From: Epinephelus fuscoguttatus | Taxonomy: Eukaryota > Chordata > Actinopteri > Perciformes > Serranidae | Length of the DNA: 64,000 bases | NCBI RefSeq assembly: GCF_011397635.1 | Contig: NC_064754.1 | Location: 37,577,543 to 37,641,542, forward strand | Direction of reading: 5' to 3' | The notes under the pieces: generated by a model | What the model saw: only the letters and a program-made list of their open reading frames with translations | The model's database searches: none | What the model was told of the DNA's origin: nothing | Part shown: positions 11,761-52,200 of the stretch, piece after piece | Layout: each line of letters opens with the position of its first letter | Numbering within the stretch: the first letter of the stretch is position 1 | Made by a program: the position numbers and the translations under genes

Positions 11761-23694
<11,934 letters not shown>

Positions 23695-36600: not shown

Positions 36601-37700
36601 GAATTTGAATTTTTTTTTCTCTCGTCTCCATGGTAAACAGAGAATCCAGAAACGCAAAAAATTCTTGATGAAGGAAGTCATAGGGGTCCACATTTAACAG
36701 CGAAACTTTATCGAAACATCCATTTTTCACATAAGTCAACCGAAGCCAGACTGTAAAAACAGTAATTTTTACTAGCTAAAAACAGGAGCTGCTGGTCTAC
36801 CACTGCCTTGTTCAGATAGTTAGTTTGTGTTATTCTGTGATGTTGGTGCTTTAAAAGGTCAGTTTGGATTCATCAAAGTCACACAATAACGCAAACAAAC
36901 TACCAATTGAGGCAGCACTAGCCTAGCAGCTTGTGTGTTCACCAAGGTAAAATTACTGTTTTTTTCAACGGAGTTTGGCTTTGTCGAGAGCACAGGTAAG
37001 TTTCACTTTTTGTTCAGTTCCCCGTCAGAAAGGGCCGTGTGTTTAGGAAGTACTGAGCATATGACTGGATAAATGGGGCTGTTGTGAAACACGATCCCCA
37101 TTTTTGTATTCTTCATTCACTGTGGAGGCGTGTGAAATAAAGTTTTCGTCACAGAATTCAACATAGCATGGGAAGAGTAATTGATATTTGGGGGTCGTAT
37201 ATCTCACGCATGTCAAAAAGAAAAAGCCTTAGTTAAAAAATGTATCCACAACATTCTGTTAATCAAGTATTAAGGAGTAAATTTCAAGTTTCCATCAAAC
37301 AAAACAACTGCAAAAAAATGTGTCAGTGCCAAGTTATTTAATAGTTACCTGACCAGATACAGAAAAGATTGATCTGTAGCTGGACCCCACACAAACTAAC
37401 GTCTGGTTACTAGGCCAAAGAAAAAGCCATCAATAGATAAAGAAAGTTAAAGAACTCCTGTTGAGTATCAGATTATGTAATCATCCTTGCACACTTGCAC
37501 CTTTTTCGCTTAAAATATTTTCTGTTGTTTTTTATTTCCATGAAGATCTGTGGCTGCAGTACATCCAGGAGGAGCTGGGACCCCTCGGACAGCCAGAGAA
37601 CTGTGGCAAGATTCACTGGAGAGCGATGAAGTTTCTGGAGGGGGAGAGCGTGGAGAGGTTCACTTCCAAGTATACTCTGATTCAGACTGGCCACTTATGA
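25743..37700 (+). CDS. utp6: UTP6, small-subunit processome (UTP-B) HAT-repeat protein, 19 exons
   Basis: UTP6 is a nucleolar protein of the UTP-B subcomplex that works in early 18S rRNA processing. Proposed coding exons: 25743-25834, 26285-26369, 26460-26501, 26682-26774, 26974-27021, 27113-27176, 27264-27382, 27598-27675, 27800-27881, 30221-30302, 30407-30585, 31397-31476, 31579-31656, 32426-32605, 35009-35089, 35859-35968, 36156-36222, 36484-36556, 37546-37700. The total is 1788 nt: 595 aa plus stop (human 597), all with GT-AG boundaries and consistent phases. Recognisable blocks: N-terminal MAEIVQHRIEERIPELEQLE; DDVQLWLSQVAFCKKW; SKVFSAMLAIHPDKPALWIMAAK; half-a-TPR (HAT) type helices such as SARHLFLRALRFHP; EERCCQVYEEGVKSL; and the C terminus GQPENCGKIHWRAMK...QTGHL. 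The start is preceded by an ETS-type promoter. Introns 8, 11 and 14 carry (CA)n tracts next to splice sites, and intron 9 holds a stack of transposons. Confidence 0.96.
27721..27759 (+). repeat. (AC)n microsatellite in utp6 intron 8
   Basis: About 19 AC units, ending 40 nt before the exon 9 acceptor (AG at 27798-27799). Confidence 0.97.
28131..28454. mobile_element. small hAT-like TIR element in utp6 intron 9
   Basis: The left end GTGTTGTCAAAAATATC and the right end GTATCGTCACAACAC are imperfect inverted repeats, with internal TATCGAT motifs. No clear 8-bp target duplication is visible and no ORF is present. Confidence 0.5.
28555..28760 (+). repeat. dispersed teleost repeat (TTTATTTATAGAGCCCAAT head)
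   Basis: The segment from CAAGTCATGTCAATTTTATTTATAG through CTGTACAGCATACGACACC and CTCCCCCTTAAAAAAGGGG resembles a widespread fish repeat I know by sequence pattern. It is interrupted at its right by the Harbinger-like element at 28787. Confidence 0.55.
28787..30176 (+). mobile_element. Harbinger-like DNA transposon with CTG target duplication
   Basis: Both ends carry the same inverted repeat, GGGCCTCATTTATAAA at the left and TTTATAAATGAGGCCC at the right. They are flanked by the trinucleotide CTG (28784-28786 and 30177-30179), a 3-bp duplication fitting the CWG target of fish Harbinger elements. The 1390-bp element lies in utp6 intron 9. It retains the start of a Myb/SANT-like accessory gene (29058 on) but no transposase. 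Confidence 0.78.
29058..29300 (+). pseudogene. broken Myb/SANT-like gene of the Harbinger element
   Basis: The frame opens at an ATG with a basic N terminus (MATGEKRTKKRNFSE) followed by ETELETL. This resembles the start of the Myb/SANT-like DNA-binding accessory protein of Harbinger transposons. It is stopped by TAA at 29121-29123 and TGA at 29139-29141. Further on, a HSSGITNKRKRK-like segment typical of the same domain is readable in the same frame, after which the match drops out of frame. The copy is inactive. Confidence 0.6.
30598..30636 (+). repeat. (CA)n microsatellite in utp6 intron 11
   Basis: About 19 CA units starting 12 nt after the exon 11 donor (GT at 30586-30587). Confidence 0.97.
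31089..31275 (+). repeat. solo left end of the AAAGGGACAG MITE family, utp6 intron 11
   Basis: Starts TTAAAGGGACAGTTCACC and continues through TAGATTGTTTTGGTGTGAGTT and GATGGCGCTTGACTTGTGG, matching the left ends at 39458 and 56228. No partner end is found downstream. Confidence 0.72.
32045..32185 (+). repeat. diverged tRNA-derived SINE in utp6 intron 13
   Basis: GGTGGCCTTGTGGTTAAAGGC resembles a tRNA A-box head. The B-box region is degraded (GGTTTTGACTC), and a body with CATTTCCTGTTACTCTCTATTG and AAGGCATTAAA follows. It resembles another common teleost tRNA-SINE lineage and is older than the copy at 12331. Confidence 0.6.
32615..32807 (+). repeat. paired CA-rich microsatellite tracts in utp6 intron 14
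   Basis: (AC)n at 32615-32632 begins about 10 nt after the exon 14 donor. A second compound tract with ACACGG interruptions runs 32762-32807. Confidence 0.9.
32961..33629. mobile_element. TTAA-flanked MITE with AAGGAATACTTC ends, utp6 intron 14
   Basis: The left end TTAAAGGAATACTTCACCC (continuing with a run matching CACAAAATGACC) is mirrored at the right by GGTCATTTTGTGGGAGAAG followed by TATTCCTTTAA. The inverted repeat is about 30 bp, and TTAA sits at both limits (32961-32964, 33626-33629). No ORF of note in 669 bp. A TTAA target is the signature of piggyBac-like elements. Confidence 0.8.
35225..35660. repeat. dispersed repeat in utp6 intron 15
   Basis: The segment from GGAGCCAGAGTCTGGGCAG through GCAGCTCCTTTGATTG, ATCATGACGTCACTGCC and CCCATGTGCTAACGC to GTCACGTCGTCCATC matches, from memory, a high-copy repeat of percomorph fishes. 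Classification is unknown to me. Confidence 0.5.
36573..37200. mobile_element. decayed TTAA MITE in utp6 intron 18
   Basis: The left end TTAAAGGAATACTTCATCC is of the same family as the element at 32961. The interior is shared with 14878-15382 and, near GGAAGTACTGAGCA and ACTGGATAAATG, with 32961-33629. The right inverted end has decayed after GAGTAATTGATATTTGGGGG. It begins only 16 nt after the exon 18 donor. Confidence 0.6.
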
Positions 37701-41008: not shown

Positions 41009-41218
41009 TCAGAGCTTCTTGAAGAGGATGTAGGTGAAGAGTACCAATACGCCTGCTGACAGAAGTCCAATCACACACTGGTGGATGGTGATGACGTTCT
41101 CCAGGGCGTGGATGCGCTCCTCCATGGCGTTGGTGTGGATGTAGTCATAAATGGAGGCCCCGATGCTCCACACCGCCCATACAGCATCCACCAACGCTTT
41201 CATGGTGGGAGAGACCAT
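41009..41218 (-). CDS. small predicted tail-anchored membrane protein, unidentified
   Basis: This 69-aa ORF starts MVSPTMKALVDAVWAVWSIG and ends FTYILFKKL. Residues about 45-66 form a strong hydrophobic helix (CVIGLLSAGVLVLFTYILF) followed by KKL, the arrangement of a tail-anchored protein. The middle (IHTNAMEERIHALENVITIH) is amphipathic and could form a short coiled coil. A good splice acceptor (pyrimidine tract then TAG at 41280-41278) lies 59 nt upstream, and an in-frame TAA follows it, so the ATG at 41218 is the first in-frame Met of a putative last exon. An out-of-frame short uORF overlaps the start. I do not recognise the family. It lies between utp6 and the miRNA cluster, where human has COPRS, but it does not resemble COPRS. 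It could be a chance ORF. Confidence 0.5.
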   Translation of the reverse strand: MVSPTMKALVDAVWAVWSIGASIYDYIHTNAMEERIHALENVITIHQCVIGLLSAGVLVLFTYILFKKL

Positions 41219-41796
41219 TGAGAGGGCCGCCTGCAGCCGGGTGCCAGCCGCATCCGCTGCTTATTGGCCCTACTGCACTACAGAGAGAGAAGAGGGTGAC
41301 ACATGGTGCAGTGAGGAGAGAGCTTTGTGTGGGTGCACTGTTAGCCTCCGAAATAGCAATTACAGTTACACATCTACAAACGTGAACAGAGCATGTGATC
41401 TGAGCTGTGAGAAGAGTGAAAGAGTGATTAATAATGCCATCTTTATACTTTCTCTTTTTGTTCTGATTCATGAAGGAATACAATTAAAAGATTTCTGTGA
41501 TTTTAGTAATTTTATAGTTGCCATTTGACGTTTATTATAGGAGTACAGTGTTTAAGTATAATTTTGAGGTACTTTTACTTTACTTGAGTGTTTTTCTATT
41601 ATGCTGTTTTATACTTTTATACTCCAGTACATTTACTTGACAAGTGTAGTTACTCTTCACAGTGGCAACCCCAGAGATTTTTCACAAAATTGGCTGCATT
41701 GGGGTGCAATACCAAAACCAACAGCCATACTGAATTTCAGGAATTCTATAACGCTGTTGCAGTATATGGGCTAGTTGAAAACTGTCAGTATGAAAG
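41219..41796. other. 5' side of the small minus-strand ORF
   Basis: Holds the putative acceptor at 41278-41280. No further exon could be recognised, and no repeat was identified. Confidence 0.4.
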
Positions 41797-42430: not shown

Positions 42431-43395
42431 TAGGGATGCACCGAATATTCGGTAACCGAATATATTCGGCCGAATATTGCAAAAAACCACACATTCGGTA
42501 TTCAGTGGAATAAGTTAAAAGCCAGGCCGAATAATAGTGGCGTGTTTTGATAAACAGCGTGCTGTGACCGGCGGAGTAAAATGTCGGTAGTGTGGCGATC
42601 CGTCCGTCACGGCACTTGCATTTGCGACTAAAAATAGTTGTGAGTGAGCAAAATAGGCTTAAATCATTCAGCATGCTGTGCGAGCAGCCTACACATTTCA
42701 ACCAGCAGCAGAAACGAAAGGCGAATCCCATCGGTTGTGGGTTGAACGGGGGTCACAGACACAGACAGTAATGTATTCCTGTCAAATATGGCGGCCATCG
42801 GCTTACCGGCGAGGGGAAGTCGGCTCCAATAATATCCTCTTGCCGTCATGACTGCCCAGAAGTACCTGAACAGCCGAGCCAGCCGAACACAGGTATGTGA
42901 TGTGTCAGAGGAGAAACGAGCCTTTCACGGCCCACAAACCTCACCGCACTTTAGGGACTGTTCTTTACTTATGAAGGGACTGTTCTTTATTTGTCAGGGG
43001 AGGAGGATGGCTGGTTGATTCTTATTTTATTTATTTATTTATTTTGATCCCCCCTATGTTCTTCACTCATTGATGCTGTGTTTGAAGTATGAATAAGTCA
43101 AGTAATGTATTCCATTGAAATATCATTGATGTATTATAGAAAAGTGATTTATCTTTTCATAAATGACAAAAGGCACATCTGCCTCATTTTCGCTGTGGTA
43201 TCGTGATACTACTCAGAACCATGATATTTTCATTGGTATTGTACAGTGGGTCCCAATTTTGGTACCGTGACAACACATCTGGAGGGTGTTCATCTGCAAA
43301 AACTAATGAACAACTAAACAACGATATTTGGTATTCGGCCAAGCGTTTAATATTATTCGGCTTCGGCCACAGATTTTCATTTCAGTGCATCCCTA
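42431..43395. mobile_element. non-autonomous hAT element with perfect 8-bp target duplication
   Basis: The termini are TAGGGATGCAC and GTGCATCCCTA. The direct duplication ATATCTGT is exact at 42423-42430 and 43396-43403. Subterminal ATTCGG/CCGAAT motifs recur in both orientations near both ends, as in hAT transposase-binding regions. The 965-bp interior has no long transposase ORF. The exact duplication suggests a relatively young insertion. Confidence 0.9.
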
Positions 43396-44950: not shown

Positions 44951-45159
44951 AGCAGCAGACAACTCAACATGACATAACGAGAGAGACTAGAAACCTTGCT
45001 AACTTGTTATAACATTTGAACTGAAGCCACTGATTACATTTGTCCAAAAGGATCCAGCTGTCGCGCTGTAATGACCCCCTGATGTACAGCTGCACGTGAT
45101 CACACTCAGTGATCTGAATAAAACAATAAGATTGTGTTTGACACATGCATGTGATGAAG

Positions 45160-46200
45160 TGTCAGGGCGCGTCGCTGCCACCAGGGGTCGCAGCACACTA
45201 ACATGTTGCTGGTTCAGGGAGGTAACATGAGAGGTGTGATGAACCTGGGATGTATATAGCCTCCTGAACAGCATCGATAAAAGAGGGGAACACCTCGAGA
45301 GAGCCGCAGACGAGCCGCTCCGGAGCCGCCGGAGACGCAGCCAAGCGCGGCACGGGGCCTGTGTGGCGCATGTGGACGGGCGAGCCAACACACCGCAGGA
45401 ATGTGTGCAGTTACAGGAAAACACACATGCTCGGACATTACTGAGTGTAGTGTTCTTGGCCGTTTCAAAGTCCTCTTACAGAATAATTGGGAATACGGGG
45501 CCACATTGCTGCGCCCCCGACGGAAACCTATAATTGGAGACGAGCCAGTGACGCGCTGAAAATAACCAGGTTACCACTTAGCACCGGTCCATTTTGGGGA
45601 GGGCCCAACACGAGGGCGCAGCACCATATATCAGCTCCTTCCAGCTGTTTGGGAATATCCTGCTCATAATATCGAGGCTGCAGCATGGCAGTAGCAGCAG
45701 CAGGCTCCAGTCTCTTTCCCCGACTGTCTCTTTCCAGAATGGATATTGGGTGACTGGCTGGGTGCTGGGTGCGCACCGGGGATCTCTCGGTGGGAAACGC
45801 AGAAGCGTTCTTTTTTTTTTTTTGAAGGGAGGAAGGGCGGGAGGGGGGAGACTGGCACAAGGCGCGACACTGTTGCGTCTGCATGTTTTTTCCCCTTGGA
45901 CAGAAGGAAAAAGATAGGCCGAGGGGGAGACTGTCCGACTTCTTCCAAAAGACAATTCGTTCCCCCCACCCCCGAAAGGATAATCTTGCTCAGTCTGGGA
46001 TGCGTGCAACACCAAGTGATCAGATATTACTGGGGCGGCGGTGGTGCCGGAGCTGGCGGTGGATGGACGGCGAAGTTCAACTTCGCTTGCAGACGCGATC
46101 TCCTCCAAGCAGCCAGACAAGCAACCAGACAGTCGGCGCTTTTTACGCGAAGTCCCCATATGGCTGCGGGATGCTGACACCTGCGCAGTACGCAGGTAAC
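45160..46200 (+). promoter_or_regulatory. CpG-rich promoter, likely for the mir-193a/mir-365 primary transcript
   Basis: CpG dinucleotides are dense compared with flanking DNA (for example CGCAGACGAGCCGC, CGGAGCCGCCGGAGACGC, GGGGCGGCGG). A TATATAG box at 45253-45259 would place a start near 45285. A donor-like CGCAG/GTAACT occurs at about 46196, allowing a first exon of roughly 0.9 kb. Overlapping ORFs on both strands look non-coding and GC-driven. mir-193a begins 230 nt further on in the same orientation, so I infer a pri-miRNA promoter. A protein-coding host cannot be excluded. Confidence 0.55.
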
Positions 46201-46396
46201 TACAACCGGGCAGCATCACTCACTTCTGCAGACACTGACAGACAGCAGATCAATGGGTATGTATCGGTGTGGTCACAGGTTAAACCCTTCGCATTCCTTC
46301 ATTACCTCGTCTGGAAGTTATATCTTGTGGTGTGAAAGACACTTCCAGAATCCATAGGTGTGTAGTTTCCTCCACACTGAGTCCCCGACGATGGGA

Positions 46397-46424
46397 CTGA
46401 TGATGATGATGATGATGATGATGG
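46397..46424 (+). repeat. (TGA)n microsatellite just upstream of mir-193a
   Basis: About eight to nine uninterrupted TGA/GAT units, ending roughly 6-8 nt before the base of the mir-193a hairpin. Confidence 0.95.
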
Positions 46425-46429
46425 TGTGT

Positions 46430-46504
46430 GTCAGAAGCTGGGTCTTTGCGGGCAAGGTGAGTCCTCAATTCGTTCAACTGGCCTACAAAGTCCCAGTTTC
46501 TGGC
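46430..46504 (+). ncRNA. mir193a: microRNA precursor mir-193a
   Basis: The 22-nt segment at 46476-46497 matches vertebrate miR-193a-3p as I remember it, base for base; its seed is ACTGGCC (46477-46483). The 5p arm at 46439-46460 (TGGGTCTTTGCGGGC...) pairs with it: TGGG with CCCA and CTTTG with CAAAG. The stem continues outward with CAGAA (46432-46436) against TTCTG (46498-46502). The GGCCTAC form separates it from miR-193b (GGCCCTC). miR-193a-3p is a conserved growth-restraining miRNA. The precursor lies downstream of a CpG-rich promoter and 2.7 kb upstream of mir-365, the conserved vertebrate pairing. Confidence 0.95.
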
Positions 46505-49158
46505 TCATGTGACCACCAAGTTATTGCAAATGCACTTCTGCTACATATTCATGTGTTAGAGAAAAGAAATAGGGAACAGATGGGAAGTCTCGCGGAGAAT
46601 ATAAATAGGCGTTTTAAAGAAGGACAGTGATATCTCAGGAGTCTCACTGTAAAGCTCGATAAGGTCAGTAAACACACCATTTAATACCGCTGATAGGCCT
46701 GTTTAATGTGAGCTATAATATTTTAGGGGAATATTATGGCAGAAACACAGCAGCCTACAGTACAGTAAGGTCATTATAAAGTCACTAATAAATACCACAG
46801 GACCCATTACAGACCGCAGGTAATATTATACCAATATTACACTTAATTTCTTTTTATTTGAATGTATGAGCTGCACTTAAGCCAGTACAGAAAAGCACAT
46901 ACGATGACTACATTTGCAAAGCAGCTGCAGGTACTTAACCAAAGGAAATGTAAAGATATGTAAAATTATATTTAATATCTCAGAGGGTCAAACGGTGAAT
47001 GTCATTGCCTAATAATAGGCCAAAACCCTTTGATTAGTCAAACTTGAACTTTTCAGCCTTGTGAAAGGGAAGCATGCTTCTCAAGAGAGTCACAGAAAAC
47101 CAGAGCAGAGGGTGTTTCTGTCTGATGCTTACAATGATGAACAACTTTCACATGCCATTTCTCGAGGAAAAAAAACCCAGCCCCGCATTTCTCAGCTGGC
47201 CTCATTCTGCTGTACAGTTTTTGATAAATAGTTTTCAAAACATTTTTTTTCCCAAGCTTTTTTATTTTTGAAGTCCAATCAAAAATAGATTAGAAATTAG
47301 ATTAGGGAAAACAAGAAAATCCAAATGTACAGGGAAAATCAGCTCGTTCTTTGAATGAATCCATCTTCAAAGAGCAAAAATGATAAAAACTTAAACTGGT
47401 TCTGTTACAAGCAAATTACTCCTACCCTTCCTGAATTTAGATGTGTAATTTAATCCAAAGTTTAACCATTTCTGGAGAAGCTTACAGCCTACACTCAACA
47501 TTAACACATCCAAATAGATTAAAAACAGACAAACATCACAAAGTGCAACACTCTATTATGTCGAACAAGTGTGTCAAGTGGGAAGAAGTTGTTTTGGAGG
47601 CCTGTTTCTATATCCGTCCTGACCCTAGCATGCCGTACATACCTCACTAATGAATTTAGCATCCTGACACTAGATGCTTTATGTAATTAATAGAGCGGAG
47701 GGCCAGGGTGGCATCTCCATGCTGCAAGTGACACATAGGTAAGACATTCGCTGAAGCATGGGATTTTTATTTTAAAAACACGAGACCTCCGTGATTATTA
47801 AAACACACCTAAAAACAGGCCTGTAAATGAAACAGACTCCCTTGGCATCACGGTAGGTGAGAAGTGGTTGTATTAATCTTTCCGTCAGTTTTATTTATTA
47901 AAAAGTTCATGCTTGATCATAAGTTATTTGCAGGCCGTGTATAACACATCAGTGACAGGTCGTTTGTTTTTACGAGCCTGCTATTTCTTGTAAGAAGTTG
48001 CTAGGAAAGTTGTCAGAACTTCTCGACTTCTAATTAAATTCCTTTAGATGTCGGTGATATCCTTCTGCTAATTACATGTAGAGAATATTTCAAACATTCT
48101 TTGTTAGCAGATTATAAAATGTAGTTAAAATCAAATAAAGAGAATAGATGAAAATGCTTTCACCTCAGATCGGACGAGATGAGCTCAGCTATCATCACTG
48201 ATTCCCTCCAACGTAGCCCACTAAAGCACAATGACACATCACAGAAAGCAGATAAAAAACCTCTCCAGCCAAAAGCTCTCCATATATGCTGCAGGAGAGT
48301 ACGAGCCAGTGCGAGTATGAGAGCTGAGGGCCTAGTAAGGGAGGCTTGGTGGAATGAGCCTGGTTTGAATAAGCAGCATGGCTACGGGGAGCTCTGGGAT
48401 AGTCACCAAGTGTGCTGATTAAAGTTGTGATATTAAACAGTGCTGGCTGCTACCGCCTGCCAAGCCTCTCTCAGTGGCATTTCACATTGTTTAAAAGGCC
48501 CAATCGGACTCATCTCGCCACTTGCTGCACAGTGTTGCTTACATCTTTTTATTTTCCACCACGGCTGTCTCGTATTCTCTCCTCACACCATTTGTTAGCA
48601 GGGTTGTAGTCTTACTTTAAATAGACTTTTCCTGCGTTTTCCTACAGGTTGTTTTCTGCTCAGGGTCACTGGGTTCATGCAGTTCTCAAACAGGCCACAA
48701 CAATGTGTATGTTATTGTGAGCATCATATAGAAACGTCTGCTAAAGGTAAAAGCTTCAGATTGTGTTTACCTTTTCTGTGAAAGCTGAACTCCTAATGAA
48801 CACATGGAGCGCTCCTTCTCGGAAATTCTGCTCTGAACTCATTCAACCCCCTTTAAAAACGTCACTGAAAATCCCAATAAAACTCTGCCATTATAAATAT
48901 ACAATTCATAAACACTGGAGAGCGTGCTCGCTTTTTGTGAAATATATGACCCAGCCCCCCACCCCCCCTTCTTAAAAGGTCAGACGCTGCGGTCACTCCA
49001 GGTTGTTGCATTTCTCAGCCACGATTGAACAGATACCAAAGTTATGCACCCAATCGCACTCGAGGAGCCAGCGAATGTTGTAGTTTGATCTCAAAAGTCT
49101 GGAATGAGACATAGAAAGCTTAAGCTAGGAAGGGAGGGAGGGAGAGAGAGAAAAGGCA
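46505..49158 (+). other. inter-miRNA spacer of the probable primary transcript
   Basis: No coding exon seen. If mir-193a and mir-365 share a primary transcript, as in other vertebrates, this is transcribed spacer or intron. A GGGAGGGAGGGAGAGAGAGA purine tract lies at about 49131-49152, just before the mir-365 hairpin. Confidence 0.5.
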
Positions 49159-49241
49159 GCAAGAAAAGTGAGGGACTTTTAGGGGCAGCTGTGTTTTATT
49201 AACCCAGTCATAATGCCCCTAAAAATCCTTATTGCTCTTGC
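49159..49241 (+). ncRNA. mir365: microRNA precursor mir-365
   Basis: The 22-nt segment at 49211-49232 matches vertebrate miR-365-3p as I remember it (seed AATGCCC). The 5p arm at 49171-49193 (AGGGACTTTTAGGGGCAGC...) is complementary: AGGGGCA opposite TGCCCCT and AGGGA opposite TCCTT with a G-U pair. The hairpin closes with GCAAG (49159-49163) against CTTGC (49237-49241). It has the same strand as mir-193a 2.7 kb upstream, so co-transcription is likely. The 5p arm differs slightly from the human one (TTTTAGGGGCAG rather than TTTTGGGGGCAG), as tolerated for a passenger strand. Confidence 0.96.
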
Positions 49242-52200
49242 AATGGTCAACAAATCTCCTGTTGCAGCACGTAGATGATCTGTGAACGCCATGCAGGGAT
49301 TCAAATCAACAACCTGTCGCACGTCGCAGGGCCAGGGCACGAGTCGATGTTTACTGTATGTATTGGCTGCATAGGTTACATTTAGAAAGTTAAACCAAGC
49401 GTAGAAGTCGCAGCACTTATTGAATTGCAGAACACGTGAATGGAAGGATGCAGTCTCACGGGAGCTGCTGAAATCGAACAACAGTAACCTTCGTCATAAG
49501 TTTCACAACACGTTTGCTGATGCAGATTAGCACAAAGTTGGAAATGTTAACAACTCTATCTTGGAACTGCACAGGCTGAATGAACAATATACTAACAATA
49601 CCAATGTTTCCCTTTGGCAGACTTATGAAGTACGTTGTCATTGTATTACTGCAGTAGTTTAACATGCAGACGGGGGAGTCAATGCTCCTTGTCCTTCGGT
49701 ATTTTGACTTTGCAATCAAGTGCCAAGGGATGGACTGAAAGATAAAGACAGAAAGGCAGGTAGACTGACAAATAAGACAGAGTGGCAAGCAGCGATGGCA
49801 GACTAACACAAACTCAGGGAGTATTAAGATACACAGTACAGGCTGGTAGAAATACAGGCAGGCAGATGGGTGCATAAAGACAGGTAAACAATGAGACATC
49901 TTGACAAGACAGCAGCAGCGCAGAGAGATATAGAAAATGGCAACCAGGCAGACAGAAGAAGACGGGCAGCAATACAGGCAAATACACAGAGAGACAGAGA
50001 GAGAGACATTGAGGCAAGCGGGCCGTGGACTGGGATCCAGGCCTGGGTGTGGTGAGGTGGGCTGTCGTGGCTGGAGAGCGGGTGGTGTGGAGTGGAGCTC
50101 TCGATGTTGTTGAGTGAGTCATCGGAGGGAGGCTATTCTGTTGAGTTTCCCTGTGGGACGGCCGCTGCCGAAGGAAGGAAGGAAGAATCCTCTTCACATC
50201 GAGGGAAGGAGAGAGAGAGACAGACATGGGGAGAGGGAGTGAGGGAAAGTGTGGACGATGACTCAGGGCCACGAACCACATGGTGATGGAGGAGGGAGGG
50301 AGGAATTACTCATCAGAGCATGTGGAATCTCATACGGCTATCACAGGACTGACAGTGTGCTTCCCCCATGGCTGCTACTGAGCCTCCGCCACCCAGCCGC
50401 CATCACTCCCTCAGGCACCAGCTCGACACCAATCATCCTTGCTTCCACCGAACGAGAACAGAGTGAAGGTGGGGATCAGGGTGAGCCTGGGGTCAAATTC
50501 ACACGGGAAGGTTTTTTTTTATTTTTAATTCTTTCATCAAAGCCAGATCCCCTCCAGTTTGGGCACCTCAGGGCGTCATGAGGCACGAACTGACAATAGA
50601 TGAGTTTCTAAACTCTTTTATCAAAGCTGAATCCACTCCAGTGGGTCTGAGTCACACGACTTTTTTCCCCCAAAAGTCTTGGTCACTTGGCTTTGCGCAG
50701 CAATCCGTGTGACTGTCGAGTGCATGTTGAAAATACTGCATCATTCTCTGACGACGCCATTTGAATTTCAGCAGAGGCTGTAACAGGCCTCCTGATAAGT
50801 CATTCTGGGTGAAAGAGAATATGTCAAATTGTGGGCCAAGTGGAGCAGCTACTAAAGTTTCTAGAAACACCTGAGTGTGGAAGGCCAGCCTGGCTCAGGT
50901 TCTGGTTTTAATCAAGAAAGATAAGTATTATCAAGTGTAAATACTGAGGTATTTTGAAACAGGAGTTTCGCCTCAGTCCCTGTCTGCTTATATTTGGCTT
51001 TAAATTACAGCAAGTTGGTGCAGGCCTCTGTGCTCTTTCTCCAAATTAGGCAATACTGTCAAAATATGTAATCAAAGGAACTTTTCAAAAGGACTGAAAA
51101 TGGCTTTATGAATATGTATCTGCAGTGCAAGGAGAACAGAGGATGACATTTTAAGTCCAGTCGCTTCTCTGTGGCTCGGCTCACAAAACAGCTCTTTCAT
51201 GGCTGTGTAAATCCATCTTTACAGTGATAAATGTGCCACTACAGAGAGCCTGTGGGTGACAAAGTTGCACTGAGTGATGACAAGGCAGAGAATCTAAACG
51301 GGTGAAAGGGCCACAGCCACGGCATACACCACGACTTCTCTTTATCTGCTTGAGAGTCAGCAGCTGAACCTGCAGGTGTCCTTGAATGTGAGTGGTTGTG
51401 AATTAAGTGTTAACACATAGCTCAGTGGTGGAGGGGGAAGGAGTTGGCAGAAAGTTTGTACAACAGTGAAGACACGCACCCAGGTCATATTTATATGAGT
51501 GTATGTGTCCAGTACACCTGTCGCTAAATTTTTGGTAGGCAACAATTTTTTTATATCTGCATGTGCAGCAAAAAAAGATGGCGATGAGTACACCATGGTG
51601 GCATGACTCAACAGGTGAAAGGGGCACGCCCATGAGACTAGTTTAGGCCCCCCCCCCCCTTACCAGTGGCGGCACAGTCCCAGATCTCTCTCTCTAACAG
51701 AGGTTGCCATTAGGGTGTGGGCTGACAGTACTCCAACACCAGAAGAACCACTCAAATCCAGAGCAAACACTGCAGACAAAAGCGAGAGGGCAAGAAAAAC
51801 TGGAGCAGACCTTCCCTGTGTCGATCTCTGCAGCACCCCTCTTTAAAAAATGAGAATGAACCTTTCTGACCTGCTTTTAGCCAATCAGCTTTTGTGACCG
51901 GGCTTTGGTATGACTAGAGCAAATAGAGGAGGGTAATCAGCCATCACGTATCTGCGATGGTAATTTTCCCGTCTTAGTAATACCTTTAGCCAAATGAATG
52001 TGACGCTGTTGTTGCTGTCCACTGCCTTTGTGGATCTGCTGTGGCTGGTTGCACCAGCTCTTTGTAATCACAAGGCTATTTGTAATGTTAAGTGTTTCCT
52101 GTGTGAAGATTTATGTATCACCAAATGACACAAGGTTGCACCACACAAACTAGGTCTTACACAGCGAGTAGTTGTGAATAAATACTGTATTTACACCCAA

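Follow-up and report, generated by a model that had tools for sequence, protein, structure and literature searches.

The mir-193a and mir-365 cluster of Epinephelus fuscoguttatus and its probable CpG island promoter

In zebrafish, at least three mir-365~193a pairs, on chromosomes 3, 6 and 6, are listed as polycistronic in table 3 of PMC2427041, and in mammals a miR-193b~365-1 transcript is recorded as annotated in PMC2632650. The human genes hsa-mir-193a and hsa-mir-365-2 appear as intergenic, with hES and mES entries, in a table headed putative long-range-regulated target miRNAs (PMC3123655). According to PMC5605928, a 1556-bp CpG island carrying H3K4me3 and H3K27ac encloses human MIR193A, and a regulatory region lies upstream of the gene. 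The gene list in PMC5370280 gives the human order as RAB11FIP4, MIR193A, MIR365B, MIR4725, COPRS, UTP6, SUZ12. Among fish, a salmonid mir-193a precursor is given in PMC4938405, where whitefish liver small-RNA reads were mapped to salmon.

We analysed a window of 64,000 nucleotides of E. fuscoguttatus (contig NC_064754.1, 37577543-37641542), which contains mir-193a and mir-365. The locus is an ordinary conserved fish version of this well-known miRNA pair, with the same pairing as the zebrafish mir-365~mir-193a polycistrons (table 3 of PMC2427041). Like the human MIR193A~MIR365B cluster at 17q11.2, it has both miRNAs and a CpG island at mir-193a (PMC5605928). Very probably it is the vertebrate mir-193a~mir-365 cluster in conserved form, its neighbourhood making it the orthologue of human MIR193A~MIR365B, with a single primary transcript from the CpG island. 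RNA polymerase II would start within the island, at 45.1-46.3 kb on the plus strand, one non-coding primary transcript would run through both hairpins, and Drosha and Dicer would release miR-193a and miR-365. This adds one more fish genome in which the pair, known and deeply conserved, is annotated together with its likely promoter.

Hairpins and copy number

A cmscan search of the entire window gave exactly two Rfam matches at the gathering threshold. These were mir-193 (RF01895; 78.2 bits against a threshold of 55, E 1.1e-16, model positions 1-76 of 76) and mir-365 (RF00659; 110 bits against 62, E 1e-23, positions 1-86 of 86), both on the plus strand (Table 1). The stretch holding the mir-193a hairpin (46425-46509) had a predicted fold of -42.6 kcal/mol (z -6.84) and that of mir-365 one of -39.2 kcal/mol (z -6.55); in neither case was any of 200 dinucleotide shuffles equally good. 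The starts of the two 3p arms are 2.7 kb apart. The earlier note on this DNA, made from its letters, had described two plus-strand hairpins with this spacing, and both the Rfam scores and the comparison with shuffles agree with it. Its mature arms were also correctly placed when the positions were re-read.

Table 1. Features of the mir-193a and mir-365 locus, in window positions
Feature	Position	Strand	Basis or remark
suz12, two VEFS-box exons in span	11761-15705	-	Pfam VEFS-Box
utp6 last coding exon, in open frame	37437-37697	+	Pfam UTP6_C, profile 229-261 of 261, E 3.5e-16
CpG island, probable pri-miRNA promoter and first-exon region	45116-46347	+ (putative orientation)	CpG scan
TATATAG, weak TATA-like site	45253-45259	+	7.6 bits
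GT of candidate 5' splice site CAG/GTAACT	46196-46197	+	donor of the earlier note
mir-193a hairpin	46430-46504	+	5p arm 46439-46460, 3p arm 46476-46497
Near-optimal 5' splice site AAG/GTGAGT	46454-46462	+	mir-193a 5p arm and first loop letters
Candidate 3' splice site TTTTCCTACAG	48627-48647	+	about 0.5 kb before mir-365
mir-365 hairpin	49157-49242	+	5p arm presumably about 49171-49193, 3p arm 49211-49232

The 3p arm of mir-365 reads TAATGCCCCTAAAAATCCTTAT; it lies within the Rfam match and we take it to be miR-365-3p. The 3p arm of mir-193a, AACTGGCCTACAAAGTCCCAGT, is identical to the whitefish miR193-3p printed in PMC4938405, and both mature arms of the salmonid precursor given there are identical to the arms found here. 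The antisense of the mir-193a hairpin (46430-46504, minus strand) scored 51.8 bits on the mir-193 model, where the cut-off is 55. A search for both mature sequences in viral contigs returned no matches.

Exact scans of the 1.05-Gb assembly (26 contigs) located the miR-193a pattern AACTGGCCTACAAAGTCCC and the miR-365 pattern TAATGCCCCTAAAAATCCTTAT in one place each, in this cluster. With one mismatch permitted, the 193 pattern had 42 further places, 22 of which were one identical variant, and none of the 16 that were checked against Rfam matched. The shortened miR-365 pattern had two further places at one mismatch, and neither matched Rfam. A control with a reversed pattern gave 2 and 1 places. 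A family search of the genome scored 55 of 181510 candidates and its outcome is a lower bound. The exact scans suggest a single locus for each miRNA, unlike the three or more pairs listed for zebrafish in PMC2427041, and a diverged copy of the 193b type may be present besides. If each miRNA does have a single locus, one deletion would be informative.

Neighbouring genes and orientation

Linkage of the miRNA cluster to suz12 and utp6, proposed earlier, was confirmed, as both genes were identified by Pfam within the window. VEFS-Box matches of suz12 were found in 11761-12123 (E 6e-15) and 15415-15705 (E 6.4e-17). The coding part of utp6 ends at 37697, 7.4 kb upstream of the island. Divergent from suz12 (minus strand), utp6 lies upstream of the miRNA pair and on the same strand. 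The 60 kb following the window, which were also scanned, contained no Rfam match at the gathering threshold. In them, on the minus strand 69 kb past mir-365, lies the final exon of a Rab11-FIP gene of class II, with matches to Pfam RBD-FIP (E 1.5e-18) and to a Rab11-FIP3-like domain (E 1.2e-9). The nearest solved structures were those of Rab11-FIP3. Sequence did not settle between FIP3 and FIP4, and the neighbourhood favours rab11fip4.

The locus has the arrangement of a 17q11.2-type cluster: the two miRNA genes share a strand, lie a few kb apart and are linked to utp6, suz12 and a Rab11-FIP gene of class II. Strands here are plus for utp6 and the miRNA pair and minus for the Rab11-FIP gene and suz12. 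We take the human strands to be plus for RAB11FIP4, MIR193A and SUZ12 and minus for UTP6. On these strands, the flanking genes may have kept their order and orientation, with the miRNA pair inverted in one lineage. The plus strand of human MIR193A fits the lower coordinates of its upstream region as described in PMC5605928, and UTP6, SUZ12 and RAB11FIP4 are its neighbours in the list of PMC5370280, the counterparts of those found here. No paper linking utp6 or rab11fip4 with "inversion" was among the matches listed in a literature search. Between utp6 and the island, 41012-41280 on the minus strand is a candidate terminal exon. Its 69-residue frame, from 41218, ends in a hydrophobic, membrane-like stretch and had no match in Pfam or among solved structures.

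CpG island and promoter signals

The longest CpG island of the window (45116-46347; sliding 200-bp scan) spans 1232 bp, with 68 CpG, an observed/expected ratio of 0.76 and a GC content of 0.54, and stops 83 bp upstream of the mir-193a hairpin. The next longest listed, among islands of at least 300 bp, measured 458 bp. The best 500-bp step of the island had a CpG observed/expected ratio of 0.84 and was 19th among the best 25 steps of the window. Steps with higher ratios, all of lower GC, were found near 6.7, 42.3, 23.8, 28.7, 29.7 and 25.3 kb. Since several steps outscore the island on this ratio, the promoter argument rests on its length and position.

Ten open frames of at least 90 residues overlap the island, and none contained a Pfam domain at threshold; one match below threshold had 13.3 bits (cut-off 25) and an E of 0.09. 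In the two of these frames that were also scanned with NCBIfam, which is built for prokaryotes, there was no match. Long frames are common in Markov-1 sequences (n=1000), where the median longest frame was 129 residues. A coding exon in the block was rejected on the absence of a Pfam domain at threshold from all ten frames. The CpG-rich block upstream of mir-193a and its lack of a convincing protein-coding exon, both remarked on earlier, hold. The proposal that this block drives the primary miRNA is supported as the best reading by the adjacency of the island and the missing domains. A dedicated CpG promoter for mir-193a and mir-365 is probable, and is favoured because human MIR193A sits in a CpG island with H3K4me3 (PMC5605928). 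The human hairpin lies inside its island as described there, whereas the hairpin here begins just past the island's end.

The TATATAG box to which the earlier note had pointed is present on the plus strand at 45253. When TATA-matrix matches were ranked over the whole window, both strands included, it came only 72nd, a chance level, so it is no evidence for a start site by itself and was rejected as such. The donor-like site CAG/GTAACT at 46196 is real. It scored 8.5 of a possible 12.6 (rank 40 of the 3841 GT on the plus strand), within the 4.7-11.9 covered by the best sites at six exon ends presumed for utp6 and suz12; its use as a donor is plausible and unproved, and the start at about 45.28 kb put forward earlier is likewise unproved. 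The donor and TATA matrices were entered by hand. AATAAA motifs at 46787, 48134 and 48876 all lie between the two hairpins, which makes a single transcript less than certain. Also between the hairpins, a TATA-like site at 46600-46608 (TATAAATAG, followed by GCG) ranked 11th in the window and beat the site at 45253. It may have arisen by chance or may serve as a second start, for mir-365.

Possible alternative transcripts and a splice-site consensus in mir-193a

It is quite unlikely that the CpG block is bidirectional or serves mainly as the promoter of a minus-strand gene, with its last exon at about 41012-41280 and the miRNAs driven from elsewhere. That candidate exon has a pyrimidine-rich acceptor in addition to its frame and is 4 kb from the block, a 213-residue minus frame crosses the block (a length attained in 31 of 1000 Markov-1 sequences), and the antisense hairpin gives a mir-193 score, which is nevertheless under the cut-off. 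However, a CpG-rich stretch at 42552-43009 lies closer to the exon, and the two best-scoring donors on the minus strand between 41.3 and 46.4 kb, at 42806 and 42944, fall within it. No Pfam domain was found in the minus frames that cross the block, and the human CpG island surrounds MIR193A itself, according to PMC5605928. The first exon of the minus-strand gene may lie in the small island at 42552-43009. Processing of the hairpins from read-through or a long 3' extension of utp6 is highly improbable. While utp6 is on the same strand and is the nearest identified upstream gene on it, the long CpG island stands between utp6 and the hairpins, and human UTP6 is presumably on the opposite strand. 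In the human list of PMC5370280, moreover, COPRS lies between the miRNA genes and UTP6.

An unlikely alternative to simple processing of both hairpins from the CpG-initiated transcript concerns mir-193a itself, whose 5p arm reads TGGGTCTTTGCGGGCAAGGTGA and is followed by the letters GT. In this way the consensus AAG/GTGAGT (GT at 46457) falls within the hairpin. The donor at 46457 would be used with an acceptor such as that at 48647 in competition with Drosha. Splicing would remove the loop and 3p arm of mir-193a and leave mir-365 in the second exon, a Drosha cut would remove the donor, and this competition would fix how much miR-193a is made relative to miR-365. The site scored 12.28 of a possible 12.57, ranking second of the 3841 plus-strand GT and above the best site at any of the six presumed exon ends used for comparison. 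Only 0.002 such donors are expected per 75 nt, a figure from the window density that includes this site, which was chosen post hoc. The candidate acceptor upstream of mir-365 has 15 pyrimidines in the 18 positions before CAG, and ties with one other as the most pyrimidine-rich of the six candidates listed for 46.2-56 kb. The human mir-193a 5p arm, in the letters that 19 of the 20 listed papers (27 matching) print, has GAGAUGA at the corresponding place and lacks the GT present here. The salmonid precursor given in PMC4938405 has the nine letters of AAG/GTGAGT too, but as part of a miRNA arm and loop they would be conserved in any case, and splicing cannot be argued from that conservation. In the predicted fold of the hairpin, six of these nine letters are mostly base-paired, and the whitefish reads reported in PMC4938405 show that the arm is produced in that fish. 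The consensus perhaps marks a conflict between splicing and Drosha, or is perhaps incidental. We consider it improbable that the mir-193a 5p arm of ray-finned fish holds a working 5' splice site, such that splicing to a mir-365 exon would destroy miR-193a and uncouple the two miRNAs.

MiRNAs that overlap splice sites form an established class (PMC8465124), and evidence on competition between splicing and microprocessing at endogenous loci is conflicting, including that in PMC8465124. A literature search on miR-193a and splice overlap yielded five papers without miR-193a and one clinical-trial review. The donor in mir-193a offers a precise, checkable prediction on the unequal expression of two clustered miRNAs. 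As in miR-34b, miR-412 and miR-222, a splice signal lies in the hairpin, and microprocessing of a transcript could preclude its splicing and vice versa. In mir-193a the candidate donor, read from sequence alone, is in the 5p arm, whereas miR-34b and miR-412 are described in PMC8465124 as lying on acceptor sites.
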